Below are positions 1 to 6,454 of a stretch of 6,454 bases of DNA, piece by piece; within the stretch, counting starts at the first letter, position 1, and the number at the start of each line of letters is the position of its first letter. Source of the stretch: an uncultured Clostridia bacterium (GTDB lineage Bacteria > Bacillota_A > Clostridia > Oscillospirales > Oscillospiraceae); assembly GCA_947167435.1 (NCBI GenBank), contig CAMVIC010000092.1, positions 1 to 6,454 of the forward strand. Reading direction: 5' to 3'. The notes under the pieces are model-generated. The model was given only the letters and a program-made list of their open reading frames with translations. It was not told the DNA's origin and did no database searches. A program made the translations under genes and the position numbers.

Positions 1-1135
1 CCGGCTCGATGCGGTTGCCGTTGATTTTGATCATGTCGCCGCTGCGGCCCAGCAGCACGTAGTTGCCGTTTTCATCCAGGGCTGCCAGGTCACCGGTGTG
101 ATAAAGGCCGTCCACAAAGGCCTTTGCCGTCTCCTCTGGCAGATTGATATAACCCCGCACGTAGGGGTTTACAAAGCAGAGCTCGCCGGTCTCGCCGTCG
201 GCGACCGGCTTTCCGTCCTCGTCCAGAAGCCGGATCTCGGTCTCCACCTGGGGGCGGCCGATGGGGCAGGTCTCATAGGCCCTGTCAATCCTGAAAAAGC
301 CCACCGCGAAGCCGCTTTCGCTGGCGGCATAGATGTTGATGAGCTCAAGCTTGTCGTTATACAGGTTGTTTGCGGGCTCGCTGCCCACAAACAGCATCCG
401 CAGGAAGGGGCCGGTATTGTTGCCCAGCTTGCGAACGTAGGAGGGCGTCAGAAAGGTGATGGTAATCCGCTTGGTCAGGAAAAACCTGGCCAGAGCGGTG
501 GGATTCTTGATGGTGGCGTAGGAGACGATGTAGTTTTTCCCGCAGAACACGTTCAGCCCCGCCAGAATCACGATGACGGTGGCGACAAAGTTCATGGGCG
601 CCAGTGTGGCCAGCCGGTCCTTCTCGGAGAAGGGGACCACGCCGTCGATGCGGATGGAGTCGATGGCCCGCTGAAGATTGCCGTATTCGTGCAGTACGCC
701 CTTGGGATTGCCGGTGGTGCCGGAGGTGTAGATGGCATAGGCCGCGTCGTGCTCGTCCGGCGTCTCGTGTCCGCGGAGGGATTCAAGACGCATGATCTCG
801 TCCCAGTTCTCTGCGGAGATTTCCAGCTTGCAGCCGCAGTCCCGGCGGATGTAGTCGATGCGCTCCGGGGCATAGGTGTCCTCCACCAGAGCCCAGGCGG
901 CGCCGGCCTTCCATACGCCGACCATGGCAATCACCGGCAGAACGCCCCGGGGCAGGTCGATGAGGACGAAATCCTCTTTCCCGATTTTGTTTGCCTTCAG
1001 CCAGGCGTAGATGCGCCCGGACATCTCGTCCAGCTGGGCATAGCTGACGCCCTTTGTGTGCACGTCGTCAAACAGAATCGGTGCGTCGGGCGCCTGCTCG
1101 GTATAACGCTGTAGTTTATCCAGAATAGTTTCCAA
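1..1135 (-). CDS. AMP-forming adenylation enzyme (NRPS A-domain-like, ANL superfamily), 3' end missing
   Basis: Enzymes of this family activate a carboxylic or amino acid with ATP to an acyl-adenylate and usually load it on the phosphopantetheine arm of a carrier protein or CoA. The 378 visible residues show the core motifs in order: A2-like WKAGAAWALVEDTY (75-88), the P-loop YTSGTTGNPKGV (136-147), an A5-like NIYAASE (267-273), YHTGDLAAL (345-353) and GRSGDMIKINGNRIEP (363-378), after which the gene leaves the window. The C-terminal subdomain with the catalytic lysine is therefore not visible. The start is a TTG at 1135-1133, eight bases after AGAGGAG. An in-frame TGA lies a short way upstream with no ATG between, so TTG (or the adjacent CTG) is the best choice. 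The A4 region reads MNFVAT (181-186), without the Asp that binds the alpha-amino group in NRPS A domains, so the substrate may not be a standard alpha-amino acid. No condensation or thiolation domain precedes it, so it appears free-standing at the N terminus. Family membership is sure; substrate is unknown. Confidence 0.9.
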   Translation of the reverse strand, partial: METILDKLQRYTEQAPDAPILFDDVHTKGVSYAQLDEMSGRIYAWLKANKIGKEDFVLIDLPRGVLPVIAMVGVWKAGAAWALVEDTYAPERIDYIRRDCGCKLEISAENWDEIMRLESLRGHETPDEHDAAYAIYTSGTTGNPKGVLHEYGNLQRAIDSIRIDGVVPFSEKDRLATLAPMNFVATVIVILAGLNVFCGKNYIVSYATIKNPTALARFFLTKRITITFLTPSYVRKLGNNTGPFLRMLFVGSEPANNLYNDKLELINIYAASESGFAVGFFRIDRAYETCPIGRPQVETEIRLLDEDGKPVADGETGELCFVNPYVRGYINLPEETAKAFVDGLYHTGDLAALDENGNYVLLGRSGDMIKINGNRIEP

Positions 1136-1328: not shown

Positions 1329-1364
1329 TTTTCGCCATAAAACGGATTTTCGCCATAAAACGGA
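1329..1364. repeat. Perfect tandem duplication of an 18-bp unit
   Basis: The unit TTTTCGCCATAAAACGGA occurs at 1329-1346 and again without spacer at 1347-1364. It lies in the AT-richer gap between the hairpin and the adenylation-gene promoter. A related ten-base string, CGGTTTTTGT, also occurs twice nearby (1283-1292 and 1320-1329). The duplication could be replication slippage or a paired binding site; nothing in the sequence decides this. Confidence 0.9.
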
Positions 1365-1411
1365 AGAGTCCCCTGCCGCAGAGGAACGAGTCCTCTGCGG
1401 CAGGGGATTCT
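1365..1411 (-). terminator. Strong intrinsic-terminator-like hairpin after the double-glycine protein gene
   Basis: A perfect 16-bp inverted repeat (1370-1385 against 1391-1406) has a 5-base loop. It extends outward with 1365-1369 against 1407-1411, broken only at 1368/1408. It starts 18 bases past the stop codon at 1429. Read on the minus strand, the stem is followed by ACTCTTCCGTTTT, a weak and interrupted U tract. It therefore probably ends the small-protein transcript, perhaps incompletely, and may also stabilise the 3' end of the mRNA. Confidence 0.75.
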
Positions 1412-1428
1412 GCCTTGTGTGTGCGCTG

Positions 1429-1851
1429 TCAGACGTTGGCGACGCCGCTGGCGCGGATATCACCGATGGGGACGCCGCTGTAGGTGCCGTTGAAGTGCCA
1501 GACCGCACTCAGGCTCACCGCGCCGGAGAGACCGGGGATGGCAAAGCTGGCCAGACGGTTGGTGACCGGGTTGCTGCCGCCGTAATTGACGGCTGCGGCA
1601 GTGGCGGTATAGACCATGCCGTTTGCGGACAGCTCTACGCCGCCGCCGTTGCTGTACAGACTGTAGGAGGTGGCGCACACATCCACGTACAGGGTGTTCT
1701 GACCGTAGCCGTCGGCCTGTACGGACCAGTTAACCAGAAGGTTGAGCTGGGTGCCGGTACTGGAGGCGAAGCTGCCGGAGGAAATGACGCCGCCGCCAAA
1801 GCCGCCCGCTACCTGATTGAGTTCGCTCTCAGAAAGAATCTTTTTTTCCAT
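1429..1851 (-). CDS. Double-glycine-leader small secreted protein, probable cargo of the adjacent exporter
   Basis: This 140-residue protein starts with MEKKILSESELNQVAGG. The leader fits the classical double-glycine export signal: Leu at -12, Glu at -8, Leu at -7, Val at -4 and Gly-Gly at -2/-1. Cleavage after Gly17 would release 123 residues. The rest is rich in Gly, Ser and Ala and alternates hydrophobic and polar residues, as in beta strands (for example LNLLVNWSV 36-44, TLYVDVCATSYSLY 53-66, AVSLSAVWHFNGTYSG 111-126). There is a single Cys (59), so no lanthionine or disulfide pattern is apparent, and there is no second membrane or signal segment. The start has GAGGGA six bases upstream of ATG. 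The gene is divergent from the operon encoding a C39 peptidase transporter, which is the reason to call it cargo. I do not recognise a named family. The SYSLY...NG..YT...NY...HFNGTYSG pattern faintly recalls beta-sandwich domains of phage tail proteins, from memory only. Bacteriocin, adhesin or signalling roles all remain open. Confidence 0.85.
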   Translation of the reverse strand: MEKKILSESELNQVAGGFGGGVISSGSFASSTGTQLNLLVNWSVQADGYGQNTLYVDVCATSYSLYSNGGGVELSANGMVYTATAAAVNYGGSNPVTNRLASFAIPGLSGAVSLSAVWHFNGTYSGVPIGDIRASGVANV

Positions 1852-1857
1852 TGTATT

Positions 1858-1863
1858 TCCCTC
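1858..1863 (-). promoter_or_regulatory. Ribosome binding site of the double-glycine protein
   Basis: On the minus strand GAGGGA is followed by AATACA and then the ATG at 1851. This supports the start that leaves the 17-residue leader intact. Confidence 0.7.
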
Positions 1864-1992: not shown

Positions 1993-2021
1993 TTGAAATT
2001 TGCCGCAGAAACCCTTATAAT
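1993..2021 (+). promoter_or_regulatory. Sigma-A promoter of the export operon
   Basis: TTGAAA (1993-1998) and a perfect TATAAT (2016-2021) are separated by 17 bases. Transcription would begin near 2028, leaving an untranslated leader of about 130 bases before the STAS gene. This is the best promoter match in the window and suggests the operon has a sizeable housekeeping-polymerase input rather than only an alternative sigma factor. Confidence 0.8.
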
Positions 2022-2160: not shown

Positions 2161-2460
2161 ATGCTGAAAATCAACAAGACTTGTGAGGACGCAAAACTGA
2201 CGGTTGCTCTGGAGGGGCGCCTGGACACCACCAGCTCTCCGGAACTGGAGAAGAGCCTGCAGGAGAGCCTTGACGGCGTCAGCGAACTGATCATGGATCT
2301 GAGCGGATTGGAGTATATCTCCTCCGCCGGACTGCGCGTGCTGCTCTCGGCACAGAAGACCATGATGAAGCAGGGCAGCATGAAGGTGATCCACGTCAAC
2401 GAGACCGTGATGGAAATTTTCGAGGTCACGGGCTTCGTGGAAATTCTGACCATCGAATAA
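2161..2460 (+). CDS. STAS-domain protein, anti-anti-sigma factor-like (SpoIIAA/RsbV type)
   Basis: The 99 residues form a single STAS domain of normal length. Visible features are the N-terminal strands (LTVALEGRLDTTSSPEL, 13-29), the central strand and turn ELIMDLSGLEYISSAGLRVL (42-61) and the C-terminal helix region. In SpoIIAA and RsbV the loop reads DSSGL or DSTGL, and the first Ser is phosphorylated by an anti-sigma kinase. Here the equivalent is YISSAGL with Ser55 as the likely phospho-site and the preceding Asp replaced by Ser54. Proteins of this kind bind and release an anti-sigma or HPK-like ATPase in a partner-switching cascade. No such kinase or PP2C phosphatase is in the window. 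It is the first gene of the export operon, with a strong AGGAGG site, and ends three bases before the next gene in the same reading frame. Its target, a sigma factor or the exporter itself, is unknown. Confidence 0.92.
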   Translation: MLKINKTCEDAKLTVALEGRLDTTSSPELEKSLQESLDGVSELIMDLSGLEYISSAGLRVLLSAQKTMMKQGSMKVIHVNETVMEIFEVTGFVEILTIE

Positions 2461-2888: not shown

Positions 2889-5069
2889 ATGGGACAGAAG
2901 AAGATCAAACAACCGGTGACAAGGGGCCGCGCCCGGGTCCCGGTTGTTATGCAGATGGAGGCGCTGGAGTGCGGTGCCGCCTCCCTGGCCATGGTGATGG
3001 CCTACTACGACAAGTGGGTTCCGCTGGAGCAGGTGAGACTGGACTGCGGCGTCAGCCGCGACGGCTCCAACGCCAAGAACGTGCTGCTTGCCGCGCGAAG
3101 CTACGGCTTCGAGGCCCAGGGCTACCGCTGCGAGCCGTCGGCTCTGCGGGAGGGGATGCCGCTTCCCTGCATCATCCACTGGAATTTCAATCATTTTGTT
3201 GTCCTGGACGGCTTTAAGGGCAACTATGCATATATCAACGATCCGGCACGGGGCGAAGTCAAAGTTTCCATGGAGGAATTTGACGTCGCCTTTACCGGCA
3301 TTTGTCTGCAAATTACCCCGGGACCGGATTTCGTGCCCGGCGGCAAGCGCAAGAGCACGCTCAGCTTTGCCCGCTCCCGTCTGAAGGGCGCGGGAGCCGC
3401 CGTGGCCTTCGTGCTGCTGTCCACCGTGATCGGGTACCTGTTCGGCATCATAAATCCGGTATTCTCCCGCTTTTTCATGGACCGTCTGCTGACGGGAGAA
3501 AACCGGGAGCTTCTGATGCCCTTCCTGGGCCTGATGGCGCTGATGGGCCTTGCTCAGGTGACGGTGTCATGGATTCAGGCGGTATACGCCCTGAAGATCA
3601 ACGGCAAAATGGCCATTGTCGGCAGCAGCGAGTATATGTGGAAGCTGCTGCGCATGCCCATGGAGTTTTTCTCCCAGCGCATGGCGGGTGACCTGATGCA
3701 GCGGCAGGGGACCAACGCCTCCATCGCCTCCACCCTGGTCAATACCCTGACTCCTCTGGCGCTCAACACCATCATGATGATCTTCTATCTGGTGGTTATG
3801 CTGCGCTACAGCGTGCTGCTGACCATCGTGGGCATCGTGACGATCATCCTGAACCTGCTGGTGTCCCGGATCATCTCGGCAAAGCGCGTCAACATCACCC
3901 GTGTTCAGATGCGCGACGCGGGCAAGCTGGCCTCCGCAACCGTCTCCGGCATTCAGATGGTGGAGACCATCAAGGCAAGCGGCGCCGAAAACGGCTATTT
4001 TCAGAAATGGGCGGGGTATCAGGCCTCGGTCAACGCCCAGAATGTGAAGTTTGCAAAGCTGAACCATTACCTGGGCATGATTCCCGCACTGCTGTCCGCC
4101 ATTGCCGACGCGTCGGTGCTGATTATCGGCGTATGGCTTGCCATGCGGGGGGAGTTTACCCTGGGCATGATCATGAGCTTCCAGGGCTTCCTGAACGCCT
4201 TCATGTCCCCAGCCATGACCATCATCTCCGCCGGGCAGATGATTCAGGAGATGCGCACGGAGATGGAGCGCGTGGAGGACGTAATGCAGTATCCCTCCGA
4301 TCCCCATGCCATCGACACGCCGCTGTCCGACGAAAAGGACTATTCCAAGCTCTCCGGCGCGGTGGAGCTGAAAAACGTCTGCTTTGGCTATTCCCGGCTG
4401 GGAGAGCCCCTGATCCGGGACTTCTCCATGAGCATGAAGCCCGGCAGCCGCGTGGCCTTCGTGGGCAGCTCCGGCTGCGGCAAGTCCACGCTTTCCAAGC
4501 TTATTTCCGGGCTGTATCAGCCCTGGAGCGGCGAGATTCTCTTTGACGGCAGGTCCATCTCCCAGATTGACCGCAGCGTGTTCACCGGCTCGGTTGCGGT
4601 GGTGGACCAGGATATAACGCTCTTTGAGGACACCATCGCCAACAACATCAAAATGTGGGACGAGTCCATCGAGGACTTTGAGATGATCCTGGCCGCCCGG
4701 GACGCGCAGATCTACGACGACATCATGGCACGGGAGGGCGGCTTCGGCGCAAAGCTCACCGAAGGCGGCAAGGACCTGTCCGGCGGCCAGCGGCAGCGCC
4801 TGGAGATTGCCCGGGTACTGGCACAGGACCCCTCCATCATCATCATGGACGAGGCCACCTCCGCCCTGGATGCCAAGACGGAATACGAGCTGGTAAAGGC
4901 GGTCAAGGACAGGGGCATCACCTGTATCGTCATTGCCCACCGGCTCTCCACCATCCGCGACTGCGACGAGATTATCGTACTCGACCACGGCCTGGTGGTG
5001 GAACGCGGCACCCATGAGGAGCTCATGGCCAAAGGCGGCTATTATACCGAGCTCATCACCAGCGACTGA
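2889..5069 (+). CDS. NHLM/NHLP-type export ABC transporter with C39 peptidase, permease and ATPase (PCAT)
   Basis: This 726-residue protein is a peptidase-containing ABC transporter that removes double-glycine leaders and exports the cargo. The C39 domain (about 15-145) keeps the oxyanion Gln22, catalytic Cys28 (QMEALECGAASLAMV), His102 (NHFVVLDGF) and Asp118 (INDPARG), so it should be active. Hydrophobic segments at about 165-440 form the six-helix ABC permease. The ATPase has Walker A GSSGCGKST (526-534), Q-loop Gln574, signature LSGGQ (630-634), Walker B IIIMDE with catalytic Glu655, and H-loop His684. Length and domain order are those of the NHLM peptidase/ATP-binding subunit. The start eight bases after the adaptor stop is preceded by a moderate GAGGG site. 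The next gene starts 11 bases after its stop. The divergent gene at 1429-1851 encodes a protein with a fitting leader, the obvious substrate candidate. Confidence 0.97.
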   Translation: MGQKKIKQPVTRGRARVPVVMQMEALECGAASLAMVMAYYDKWVPLEQVRLDCGVSRDGSNAKNVLLAARSYGFEAQGYRCEPSALREGMPLPCIIHWNFNHFVVLDGFKGNYAYINDPARGEVKVSMEEFDVAFTGICLQITPGPDFVPGGKRKSTLSFARSRLKGAGAAVAFVLLSTVIGYLFGIINPVFSRFFMDRLLTGENRELLMPFLGLMALMGLAQVTVSWIQAVYALKINGKMAIVGSSEYMWKLLRMPMEFFSQRMAGDLMQRQGTNASIASTLVNTLTPLALNTIMMIFYLVVMLRYSVLLTIVGIVTIILNLLVSRIISAKRVNITRVQMRDAGKLASATVSGIQMVETIKASGAENGYFQKWAGYQASVNAQNVKFAKLNHYLGMIPALLSAIADASVLIIGVWLAMRGEFTLGMIMSFQGFLNAFMSPAMTIISAGQMIQEMRTEMERVEDVMQYPSDPHAIDTPLSDEKDYSKLSGAVELKNVCFGYSRLGEPLIRDFSMSMKPGSRVAFVGSSGCGKSTLSKLISGLYQPWSGEILFDGRSISQIDRSVFTGSVAVVDQDITLFEDTIANNIKMWDESIEDFEMILAARDAQIYDDIMAREGGFGAKLTEGGKDLSGGQRQRLEIARVLAQDPSIIIMDEATSALDAKTEYELVKAVKDRGITCIVIAHRLSTIRDCDEIIVLDHGLVVERGTHEELMAKGGYYTELITSD

Positions 5070-5080: not shown

Positions 5081-6454
5081 ATGGGTTGGTTTGACGAACA
5101 GATCCGTCAGAGAAAGCTGTCGGATCAGGAAATCTTTGAAGATTCCATTTTTCGTATGGCCTCCGTGGTGCTGGGAAAACAGCGGGCAGGGGTTCTGCGC
5201 GACGAGCGCATTGCCACAAAGGCGGCCATCGACGATATTCTGAAGTATTACCATTATAAAAGCGCGGAAATCCCGGAAAGCGTCCGCAGCCTGGACGAGC
5301 AGCTGGAGTTCTGCCTGCGGCCCCACGGCCTGATGCGGCGGAACGTAAAGCTGGAAAAGGGCTGGTACCGGGACGCCTTCGGGCCCGTGCTGGCTTTCCG
5401 CAAAGAGGACGGCGCGGCCGTGGCCCTGCTGCCCAAGCGCTTTGGCGGCTATTGGTTCCTGGACCCGGACACCGGGGAGAAGACTGCGGTCAACCTGCAG
5501 ACGGCCGAGCTCTTTGATGCCGAGGCCATCTGCTTCTACCGGCCGCTGCCCCTGCGGCAGCTGGGAATTCCGGACCTGATTGTGTATCTGAAGGACTGCC
5601 TGAGTACCGGTGATTACGTTGCCATCGTGCTGCTGACGCTGCTGCCCATCCTGTGCGGCCTTCTGCTGACCAATATCACCCGCGCCCTCACCGGCTTCGT
5701 GCTGGAAAGCGGCAGCCTGTCTCTGCTGTGGGGGACGGCGGTGTTCATGATTTCGACCATTGTTTCCTCCCAGCTGATCGGCGTGGTCAAGGAACTGATG
5801 ATGAACCGGGTGGAGCTGAAAACCTCCCTGTCCACCGAGGCGGCCATGATGATGCGCGTCATGAACATGCCGGCAAACTTCTTCCGGCAGTTTTCCTCCG
5901 GCGAGCTCTCCAGCCGCTACAGCGCGGTAAACCATCTGTGCGAGCTGCTGCTCAACAGCGTGTTCTCCACGGGACTGAGCTCTCTGCTCTCCCTGCTGTA
6001 CATCACGCAGATCTTCCGCTATGCCCCGGCACTGGTCGGTCCTGCGCTGCTGCTGATTCTGGCCACCGTGCTGGTCAGCGTGGTCTCGGTTCTGACCCAG
6101 ATGAAGATCAGCCGGGAGATCATGGAAAAGGGAGCCAAGCAGAACGGCCTGAACTTCGCGCTGATCACCGGCGTGCAGAAGATCAAGCTGGCAGGCGCGG
6201 AAAAGCGGGCTTTCGCCAAGTGGGCCAGCGCCTATTCCGAGGCGGTGGAGCCCAGCTACAATCCGCCGCTGCTGATCAAGGCAAACGCCGCCATCAACAG
6301 CGCCATCTCCCTGGTGGGGACCATTGTGCTCTACTATCTGGCGGTGCAGACCCGGGTCAGCCCTTCGGAGTATATCGCCTTCAATACGGCTTTTGGCTCC
6401 GTGACGGCGGCCTTCGCCTCCCTGACGGGCGTTGCCCTGTCCGTGGCGCGCATC
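5081..6454 (+). CDS. NHLM/NHLP-type export ABC transporter, permease/ATP-binding subunit without peptidase (3' end missing)
   Basis: The first 458 codons are in the window with no stop. The ATPase domain lies beyond the right edge. Residues 1-175 form a soluble extension with no Cys-His-Asp peptidase motifs. It includes a segment VALLPKRFGGYWFLDPDTG and ends near AEAICFYRPLPLRQLG, a layout I associate with the second NHLM ABC subunit. Membrane segments follow at about 178-200, 213-237, 287-338 (a helical pair), 401-424 and 431-458. The motif ALITGVQKIKLAGAEKRAFAKWA, before the fifth helix, corresponds to the intracellular coupling region of ABC exporters. The peptidase-bearing subunit has the matching SGIQMVETIKASGAENGYFQKW. 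It probably forms a heterodimer with the product of 2889-5069, since the genes are 11 bases apart and each has one permease half. The family call rests on the N-terminal half only. Confidence 0.88.
   Translation, partial: MGWFDEQIRQRKLSDQEIFEDSIFRMASVVLGKQRAGVLRDERIATKAAIDDILKYYHYKSAEIPESVRSLDEQLEFCLRPHGLMRRNVKLEKGWYRDAFGPVLAFRKEDGAAVALLPKRFGGYWFLDPDTGEKTAVNLQTAELFDAEAICFYRPLPLRQLGIPDLIVYLKDCLSTGDYVAIVLLTLLPILCGLLLTNITRALTGFVLESGSLSLLWGTAVFMISTIVSSQLIGVVKELMMNRVELKTSLSTEAAMMMRVMNMPANFFRQFSSGELSSRYSAVNHLCELLLNSVFSTGLSSLLSLLYITQIFRYAPALVGPALLLILATVLVSVVSVLTQMKISREIMEKGAKQNGLNFALITGVQKIKLAGAEKRAFAKWASAYSEAVEPSYNPPLLIKANAAINSAISLVGTIVLYYLAVQTRVSPSEYIAFNTAFGSVTAAFASLTGVALSVARI

Follow-up and report, generated by a model that had tools for sequence, protein, structure and literature searches.

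A double-glycine leader protein with a phage-tail-type domain is a candidate cargo of an NHLM-type exporter in an uncultured Clostridia bacterium

C39 peptidase domains cut leader peptides that end in a double glycine (GG), as excerpts of PMC8836110 describe. One protein with such a site is MAM of Faecalibacterium prausnitzii. Its GG site is conserved and an exporter with a C39 domain lies nearby in some strains and far away in others; the same excerpts state that the structure of MAM is unsolved and that the role of the exporter awaits proof (PMC8836110). Four small GG-motif proteins of Synechococcus elongatus, EbfG1-4, are needed for biofilm formation, and their efficient secretion requires that the peptidase domain of the transporter PteB is intact; EbfG4 is localised to the cell surface and the matrix, and EbfG1-3 are amyloid (excerpts of PMC4997328 and PMC9981879). 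With EbfG and MAM, GG-leader proteins that go with peptidase-domain exporters and are not described as antibiotics are already known. The exporters of NHLM/NHLP systems are represented by the models TIGR03796, TIGR03797 and TIGR03794. Two further systems concern the domains themselves. Lysins such as Cpl-7 use CW_7 and LysM modules to bind the cell wall, and in these hydrolases the modules are joined to an enzyme (excerpts of PMC5705596). The siphophage tail proteins of PHROG 372 that were examined here are about 820-860 aa long and contain fn3-like, DUF859 and C-terminal parts behind an N-terminal stretch of about 130 residues.

The locus described here lies in a window (the whole stretch of DNA that was analysed) of 6,454 nucleotides from an uncultured bacterium that presumably belongs to the same broad group as the host of MAM, the gut Clostridia. 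The window holds the gene for a GG-leader pre-protein beside exporter genes (Table 1). Compared by description, the pre-protein is like MAM a protein cargo with a GG site and a mixed linkage to the exporter; unlike MAM, for which the excerpts of PMC8836110 mention no such relation, it is related to a phage tail protein. Again by description and from excerpts, EbfG1-3 are amyloid, whereas the LysM, CW_7 and beta-domain cargoes reported below look globular. The locus resembles the NHLM/NHLP systems in an exporter 1 that scores over the model cut-off, with exporter 2 next to it. In contrast to these systems, its HlyD-like protein has 138 aa and scores far below the cut-off, a Nif11 or nitrile-hydratase-like leader is not seen on the pre-protein and the cargo is a predicted folded domain. 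This domain corresponds to the N-terminal part of the phage proteins, but in the cargo it stands alone behind a putative export leader. As far as the literature was searched, lone LysM, CW_7 and phage-tail-type domains as candidate cargoes tied to NHLM-type exporters are new, and so is a host domain behind an export leader that is apparently homologous to the N terminus of DUF859 tail proteins.

Table 1. Positions of the pre-protein gene, the exporter genes and further features within the window
Feature	Position	Strand	Evidence
AMP-forming ligase/adenylation domain, flanking, cut off	2..1135	-	PF00501, E 4.2e-53
Strong terminator-like hairpin directly downstream of the pre-protein gene	1362..1414	-	Folding and inverted repeat
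Gene for the GG-leader pre-protein, 140 aa	1429..1851	-	ORF list, 126 homologues, alignment
Mature all-beta domain (predicted), residues 18-140	1432..1800	-	AlphaFold, Foldseek against viral models, profiles
Leader peptide, residues 1-17, GG at its end	1801..1851	-	G16 and G17 invariant, leader composition
GAGGGA, ribosome-binding-like site for the pre-protein gene	1858..1863	-	Sequence motif
Promoter-like sequence (TTGAAA-17-TATAAT) ahead of the exporter genes	1993..2021	+	11/12 consensus matches; sequence only
STAS-domain anti-sigma-factor antagonist	2161..2460	+	PF01740, E 5.4e-15; TIGR00377 over cut-off
Short HlyD-like membrane protein, 138 aa	2464..2880	+	Partial TIGR03794 match
NHLM-type exporter 1: C39 peptidase, permease and ATPase	2889..5069	+	TIGR03796; Peptidase_C39 at residues 17-145
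NHLM-type exporter 2: permease/ATPase, incomplete at the window end	5081..6454	+	TIGR03797

The pre-protein gene looks like a single-gene unit. Six bases separate the GAGGGA motif from the start of the frame, and the hairpin behind the gene folds with -44 kcal/mol (z -8.6), a value that none of 200 shuffles equalled. An 18-base unit in perfect tandem duplication (1329-1364) adjoins the hairpin. The gene is divergent from those for the STAS protein, the short HlyD-like protein and the two NHLM-type exporters, with a gap of about 310 bases. An earlier sequence-only reading of the window had described a product of 140 residues with a 17-residue GG leader and a remainder of 123 residues with one Cys. 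The translation agrees with this description, and the mature part (12.3 kDa, pI 4.66) holds C59 as its single Cys.

The leader reads MEKKILSESELNQVAGG. In an alignment of 48 of the 126 homologues found, G16 and G17 are invariant, and hydrophobic residues precede them at fixed spacing, as in GG-leader substrates. Among the 120 homologues listed (126 found) the leader motif is matched by 118; the two others are P0078, which has a leader by eye, and P0047, which begins downstream of it. The leader region alone gives weak matches in Pfam and NCBIfam, all under the curated cut-offs; L_biotic_typeA is among them, as is the curated leader model TIGR01847, for which the pre-protein scores 13.7 against a cut-off of 15.7. 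Nif11 and nitrile-hydratase-like leaders gave no match to the pre-protein in Pfam and NCBIfam at E <= 1. A scan that required the leader motif plus a ribosome-binding site found 46 matches, 38 of them distinct, in 30 partly overlapping loci (511 kb). Reversed DNA gave 1 match, complemented DNA 1 and triplet-shuffled DNA 2-4, so that roughly 0.01-0.05 chance matches are expected per window. The window itself has a single match, the pre-protein. The scan is conservative, as two known beta-domain genes were missed (L001:10001, L002:10001). Taken alone, the sub-threshold score of the curated leader model would fit a GG that arose by chance in a cytoplasmic or unused protein. With a near-invariant leader, nearly empty control scans and a co-occurrence with the exporter (see below) against it, we disfavour this reading as very improbable.

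The 126 relatives were retrieved at E <= 0.01 in a protein search with the pre-protein. The 120 listed among them carry no precomputed Pfam domain, and neither Pfam nor NCBIfam holds a name for the family, which had indeed been suspected to be undescribed; the pre-protein matches neither LysM nor CW_7 in Pfam. Besides the two glycines, W42, F103, F120 and G122 are invariant in the 48-sequence alignment. AlphaFold, run on the alignment, predicts a confident all-beta domain (mean pLDDT 89.4). A short leader helix is followed by a low-confidence joint at residues 16-18 and then by 8 strands, as is expected of a cleavable leader ahead of a folded domain. The model and the conserved family thus support, by computation, the earlier view of a beta-rich product that is a folded domain and not a small modified peptide. 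Foldseek found no PDB match at E <= 1e-3, either for this model or for that of the phage domain described below.

Exporter 1 scores 937.3 bits against TIGR03796 (cut-off 853.3), and the NHLM-type exporter that had been read from the sequence next to the gene is thereby confirmed. It holds Q22, C28, H102 and D118, which we take to be the C39 catalytic set, together with Walker and LSGGQ motifs. The part of exporter 2 inside the window reaches 251.8 bits against TIGR03797 (cut-off 709.4). Of the 421 positions in the TIGR03794 model, the HlyD-like protein matches only the first 53, with 33.6 bits, below the cut-off of 156.2. Its relatives have 138 aa in L035, L041 and L045, 173-176 aa as called in L043, L044 and L047, and 284 aa in L037, where the gene adjoins a more distant exporter. 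The STAS antagonist is the first gene of the exporter unit, and in one relative an RsbW-like ATPase is encoded close to the exporter (L041:12335-12808(-)); this suggests control of the exporter by partner switching. Relatives encode response regulators and a histidine kinase near their exporters, and G006 has an RsbW-like ATPase there. Such regulators near the exporter genes suggest that export is tightly regulated, and the signal is perhaps envelope stress or population state. Two further proteins recur near exporter 2, a membrane protein with DUF218 and a response regulator with a C-terminal part that lacks a Pfam match (L036:8543-9997(-), L036:7214-8017(-), L041:4240-5724(-), L041:5733-6539(-)).

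The pre-protein had been taken for the only candidate cargo. This stands for the window, with its one scan match, and does not stand for the relatives, which have candidate LysM and CW_7 cargoes. Sorted by profile, the 38 distinct scan matches comprise 12 beta domains, 11 LysM, 5 CW_7 and 10 others, and a majority-residue leader pattern, [LMI]-x-[DE]-x-x-L-x-x-V-[AST]-G-G, is common to the beta, LysM and CW_7 cargoes. By eye, five of the ten others seem to be spurious, namely two 157-aa frames, two fragments of ATPases and one short frame; two are zinc-ribbon-like and three are other short GG proteins, for which a Pfam scan gave nothing convincing. GG-leader proteins that look zinc-ribbon-like by eye are encoded at L010:9852-10052(+) and L011:10453-10653(+), both adjoining the beta-domain gene, and at L073:5090-5329(-), about 2.6 kb from an exporter. 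A conserved 82-aa GG-leader protein lies directly 3' of exporter 2 (L045:13760-14008(+), L046:6565-6813(-)); the L045 copy had no match in Pfam. Pfam, run on four GG-LysM and three GG-CW_7 cargoes, recognised LysM in every one of the former (E 5e-11 to 4e-18) and CW_7 in every one of the latter (E 3e-27 to 1e-33), always over the cut-off. With a CW_7 cargo as query, 346 proteins came up at E <= 1e-3; of the 120 listed among these, 117 match the leader pattern. The mature part of these cargoes is a LysM domain or CW_7 repeats alone. Cpl-7-type lysins carry the same wall-binding modules joined to an enzyme (excerpts of PMC5705596), whereas these cargoes have no enzyme attached. By their domain assignments, bare GG-LysM and GG-CW_7 proteins are predicted peptidoglycan-binding modules without an enzyme. 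LysM domains bind peptidoglycan and related glycans. CW_7 binds a peptidoglycan fragment (excerpts of PMC5705596).

These cargoes bear on the reading that the mature protein is an antimicrobial which leaves the cell through a bacteriocin-type C39 exporter. NHLM systems and the exporter model do carry the bacteriocin-exporter name, and the leader is like those of class II bacteriocins, with the weak, sub-threshold TIGR01847 and L_biotic_typeA matches. The mature part, on the other side, is a conserved domain, predicted to be folded, that is also used in anchored and phage tail proteins, and the sibling LysM and CW_7 cargoes have no recognised lytic or pore-forming part. A modification enzyme was not among the six window proteins and nine neighbour proteins of relatives that were scanned, and no immunity gene was recognised within the window. 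We therefore consider a bacteriocin unlikely.

Do the cargoes occur together with the exporter? All 13 genomes found via the GG form (G001-G013) have TIGR03796 over the cut-off; G014, whose homologue is 29% identical, leaderless and lipoprotein-like, does not. GG-CW_7 and GG-LysM, with matches that include the leader, are likewise present in 13/13 of these genomes, with 1 to 8 GG-LysM matches reaching into the leader per genome; G014 has neither, and G098 has both. For GG-LysM a match had to begin at position 9 or earlier in a frame of at most 125 aa, a rule chosen once the table had been seen. Since G001-G013 were found through the cargo, a sample of 250 genomes of the family is the fairer test. 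In this sample 26 genomes have the exporter over the cut-off. The GG form of the beta domain occurs in 3 genomes, GG-CW_7 with leader in 5 and GG-LysM with leader in 7, and every one of these falls inside the 26 (hypergeometric 1e-3, 8e-6 and 6e-8; the sets overlap and kinship is ignored). Without the centre genome, GG-LysM still gives 6/6 (6e-7, kinship ignored). Non-GG forms of the domain are also enriched with the exporter (10/44 genomes against 13/203 others, Fisher 0.002), and kinship thus plays a part in the co-occurrence. GG-CW_7 is absent from 21 of the 26 exporter-bearing genomes. An order-wide sample comprised 394 genomes, of which 23 have the exporter over the cut-off, and GG-CW_7 with leader (E <= 1e-20) appears there in the centre genome only. 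Thus, the exporter is the wider spread of the two and the cargo set is a speciality of the lineage.

Homologues had been expected to carry the leader and to lie near C39 transporters, and both expectations hold in part. The leader is nearly universal among the listed homologues, yet the beta domain in any form occurs in 47/250 family genomes, and the leaderless forms predominate there (44 against 3). The GG form was followed in 14 genomes (G001-G013 and G098). In five of them (G001, G002, G006, G013, G098) the gene lies within 8 kb of the exporter, in eight the two are on different contigs, and in G012 there are 18 kb between the gene and a second, more distant copy of the exporter. G123 and G018 have CW_7 and LysM cargoes within 6.2 kb of the exporter, and the pre-protein was not found there in its GG form. 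The exporter neighbourhood of G018 also encodes a lipoprotein-like protein with the beta domain. It lies at L069:8250-10760 (+), has 837 aa from this start and carries long Pro/Thr/Glu-rich repeats on both sides of the domain.

Fourteen loci in reference genomes led to 14 genomes, and there the cargo profile also finds longer, leaderless proteins. Counted without phage-type proteins, 19 of the 20 distinct non-GG forms examined have a hydrophobic segment ahead of the domain, and a lipobox is present in two of the 19; the twentieth is cut by a contig end. The linker of the anchored forms consists to 53-90% of Pro, Thr, Ser, Glu, Gln and Ala. The non-GG forms therefore offer no argument for a cytoplasmic domain. 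They do bear on a role as a factor directed at the host or the community, which would be released onto host cells or neighbours and not onto the own wall. The relatives stem, as far as titles tell, from digestive-tract samples (roe deer abomasum, RUG, which we take to mean rumen genomes). MAM, the model for such a factor, offers the same GG site, C39 exporter and mixed linkage among strains in the excerpts of PMC8836110. Against this, the anchored forms keep the beta domain at the membrane and the sibling cargoes are predicted wall-binding modules, which leaves a MAM-like factor rather improbable.

The third setting of the domain is the phage tail. Foldseek against viral models gave 7 matches at E <= 1e-3, the best being an uncharacterised siphovirus protein (E 2.9e-8, TM 0.72, 34% identity). 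One of the seven has a functional name, the tail protein of Lactococcus phage AM8; the rest are uncharacterised or nameless. The cargo profile also matches the first ~130 residues of annotated tail proteins in two phages, one of them an Oscillospirales phage, with 42.3 and 33.0 bits; both proteins belong to PHROG 372 and contain DUF859. Conversely, when a profile was built from six phage-type domains and run against the reading frames of the loci used for the forward search, every match listed outside the two phage proteins was a cargo or a non-GG form (E 2e-11 to 1.5e-3). The phage set was chosen by its match to the cargo profile, and the two directions are thus not fully independent. Pairwise hhalign of cargo and phage-type domain gives a probability of 97.3 (E 1.9e-11), and the commonest residue is identical in the cargo, non-GG and phage sets at G26, F28, W42, V58, W118, G122, Y124, I132 and others. 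The phage domain is modelled as all-beta (pLDDT 82), with 18 of the 22 rows of the underlying alignment being cargo proteins. A full tail-protein architecture is absent from the cargo, with its 123 residues, no DUF859 match and no PHROG match at E <= 1. A fold shared with phage tail domains had been proposed from the sequence. The structural matches support it and the profiles go further: judged from them, cargo and tail domain are related by sequence homology, beyond mere likeness of fold, and one domain is predicted in three settings, as GG-leader cargo, in membrane- or lipid-anchored proteins and at the N terminus of siphophage tail proteins.

The phage relation invites a special case of the explanation that we favour, in which the secreted modules would take up the sites on the wall on which phages or lysins depend. 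The three main kinds of cargo recur in phage tail proteins or in cell-wall hydrolases and lysins (excerpts of PMC5705596), and the two annotated phages in which the beta domain occurs include an Oscillospirales phage. In the tail protein, however, the beta domain is N-terminal, and the cargo had no match to the PADLOC defence models at E <= 0.01. The N terminus of siphophage fibres often serves attachment to the tail and not host binding. Such a shield is a minor possibility. Similarly speculative is the proposal of an extracellular defence in which Oscillospiraceae and Ruminococcaceae of animal digestive tracts wear an NHLM-exported coat of beta, LysM and CW_7 modules that keeps phages from adsorbing or lysins from attacking.

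The explanation that we favour is that a C39 exporter lineage has been re-purposed to deliver folded envelope-binding modules, which we hold to be somewhat more likely than not. From the leader, the intact-motif exporter, the family, the shared domain, the sibling cargoes and the co-occurrence, all established computationally, we infer cleavage, export and surface binding. In the neighbouring NHLM-type ABC exporter, the C39 peptidase would recognise the leader LSxxELxxVAGG and cut the pre-protein after GG, and the exporter would pass the cargo out. Export of the pre-protein by the C39 exporter is, on sequence grounds, very likely. Outside the cell the 123-residue part would form a beta-sandwich-like domain that may bind the cell envelope or a glycan; such binding is somewhat more likely than not. 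The pre-protein would belong to a set of GG-leader cargoes that the exporter lineage handles, most of the others identified being bare LysM and CW_7 proteins, putative peptidoglycan binders. Together, the beta, LysM and CW_7 cargoes might coat or decorate the wall with no enzyme attached. As to the benefit, our guess is wall shielding, adhesion or a matrix.

Thus, a relative of gut bacteria apparently sends out a phage-tail-type domain via a machine usually tied to small antibiotics, and isolated cell-wall-binding domains seem to take the same route in its close relatives. NHLM exporters are annotated as bacteriocin exporters, and if this lineage secretes folded wall-binding domains the annotation misleads. 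If true, these bacteria would have a non-Sec route for small surface proteins, and a domain common to host surface and phage tail proteins would offer a handle on the binding partner of the tail domain.
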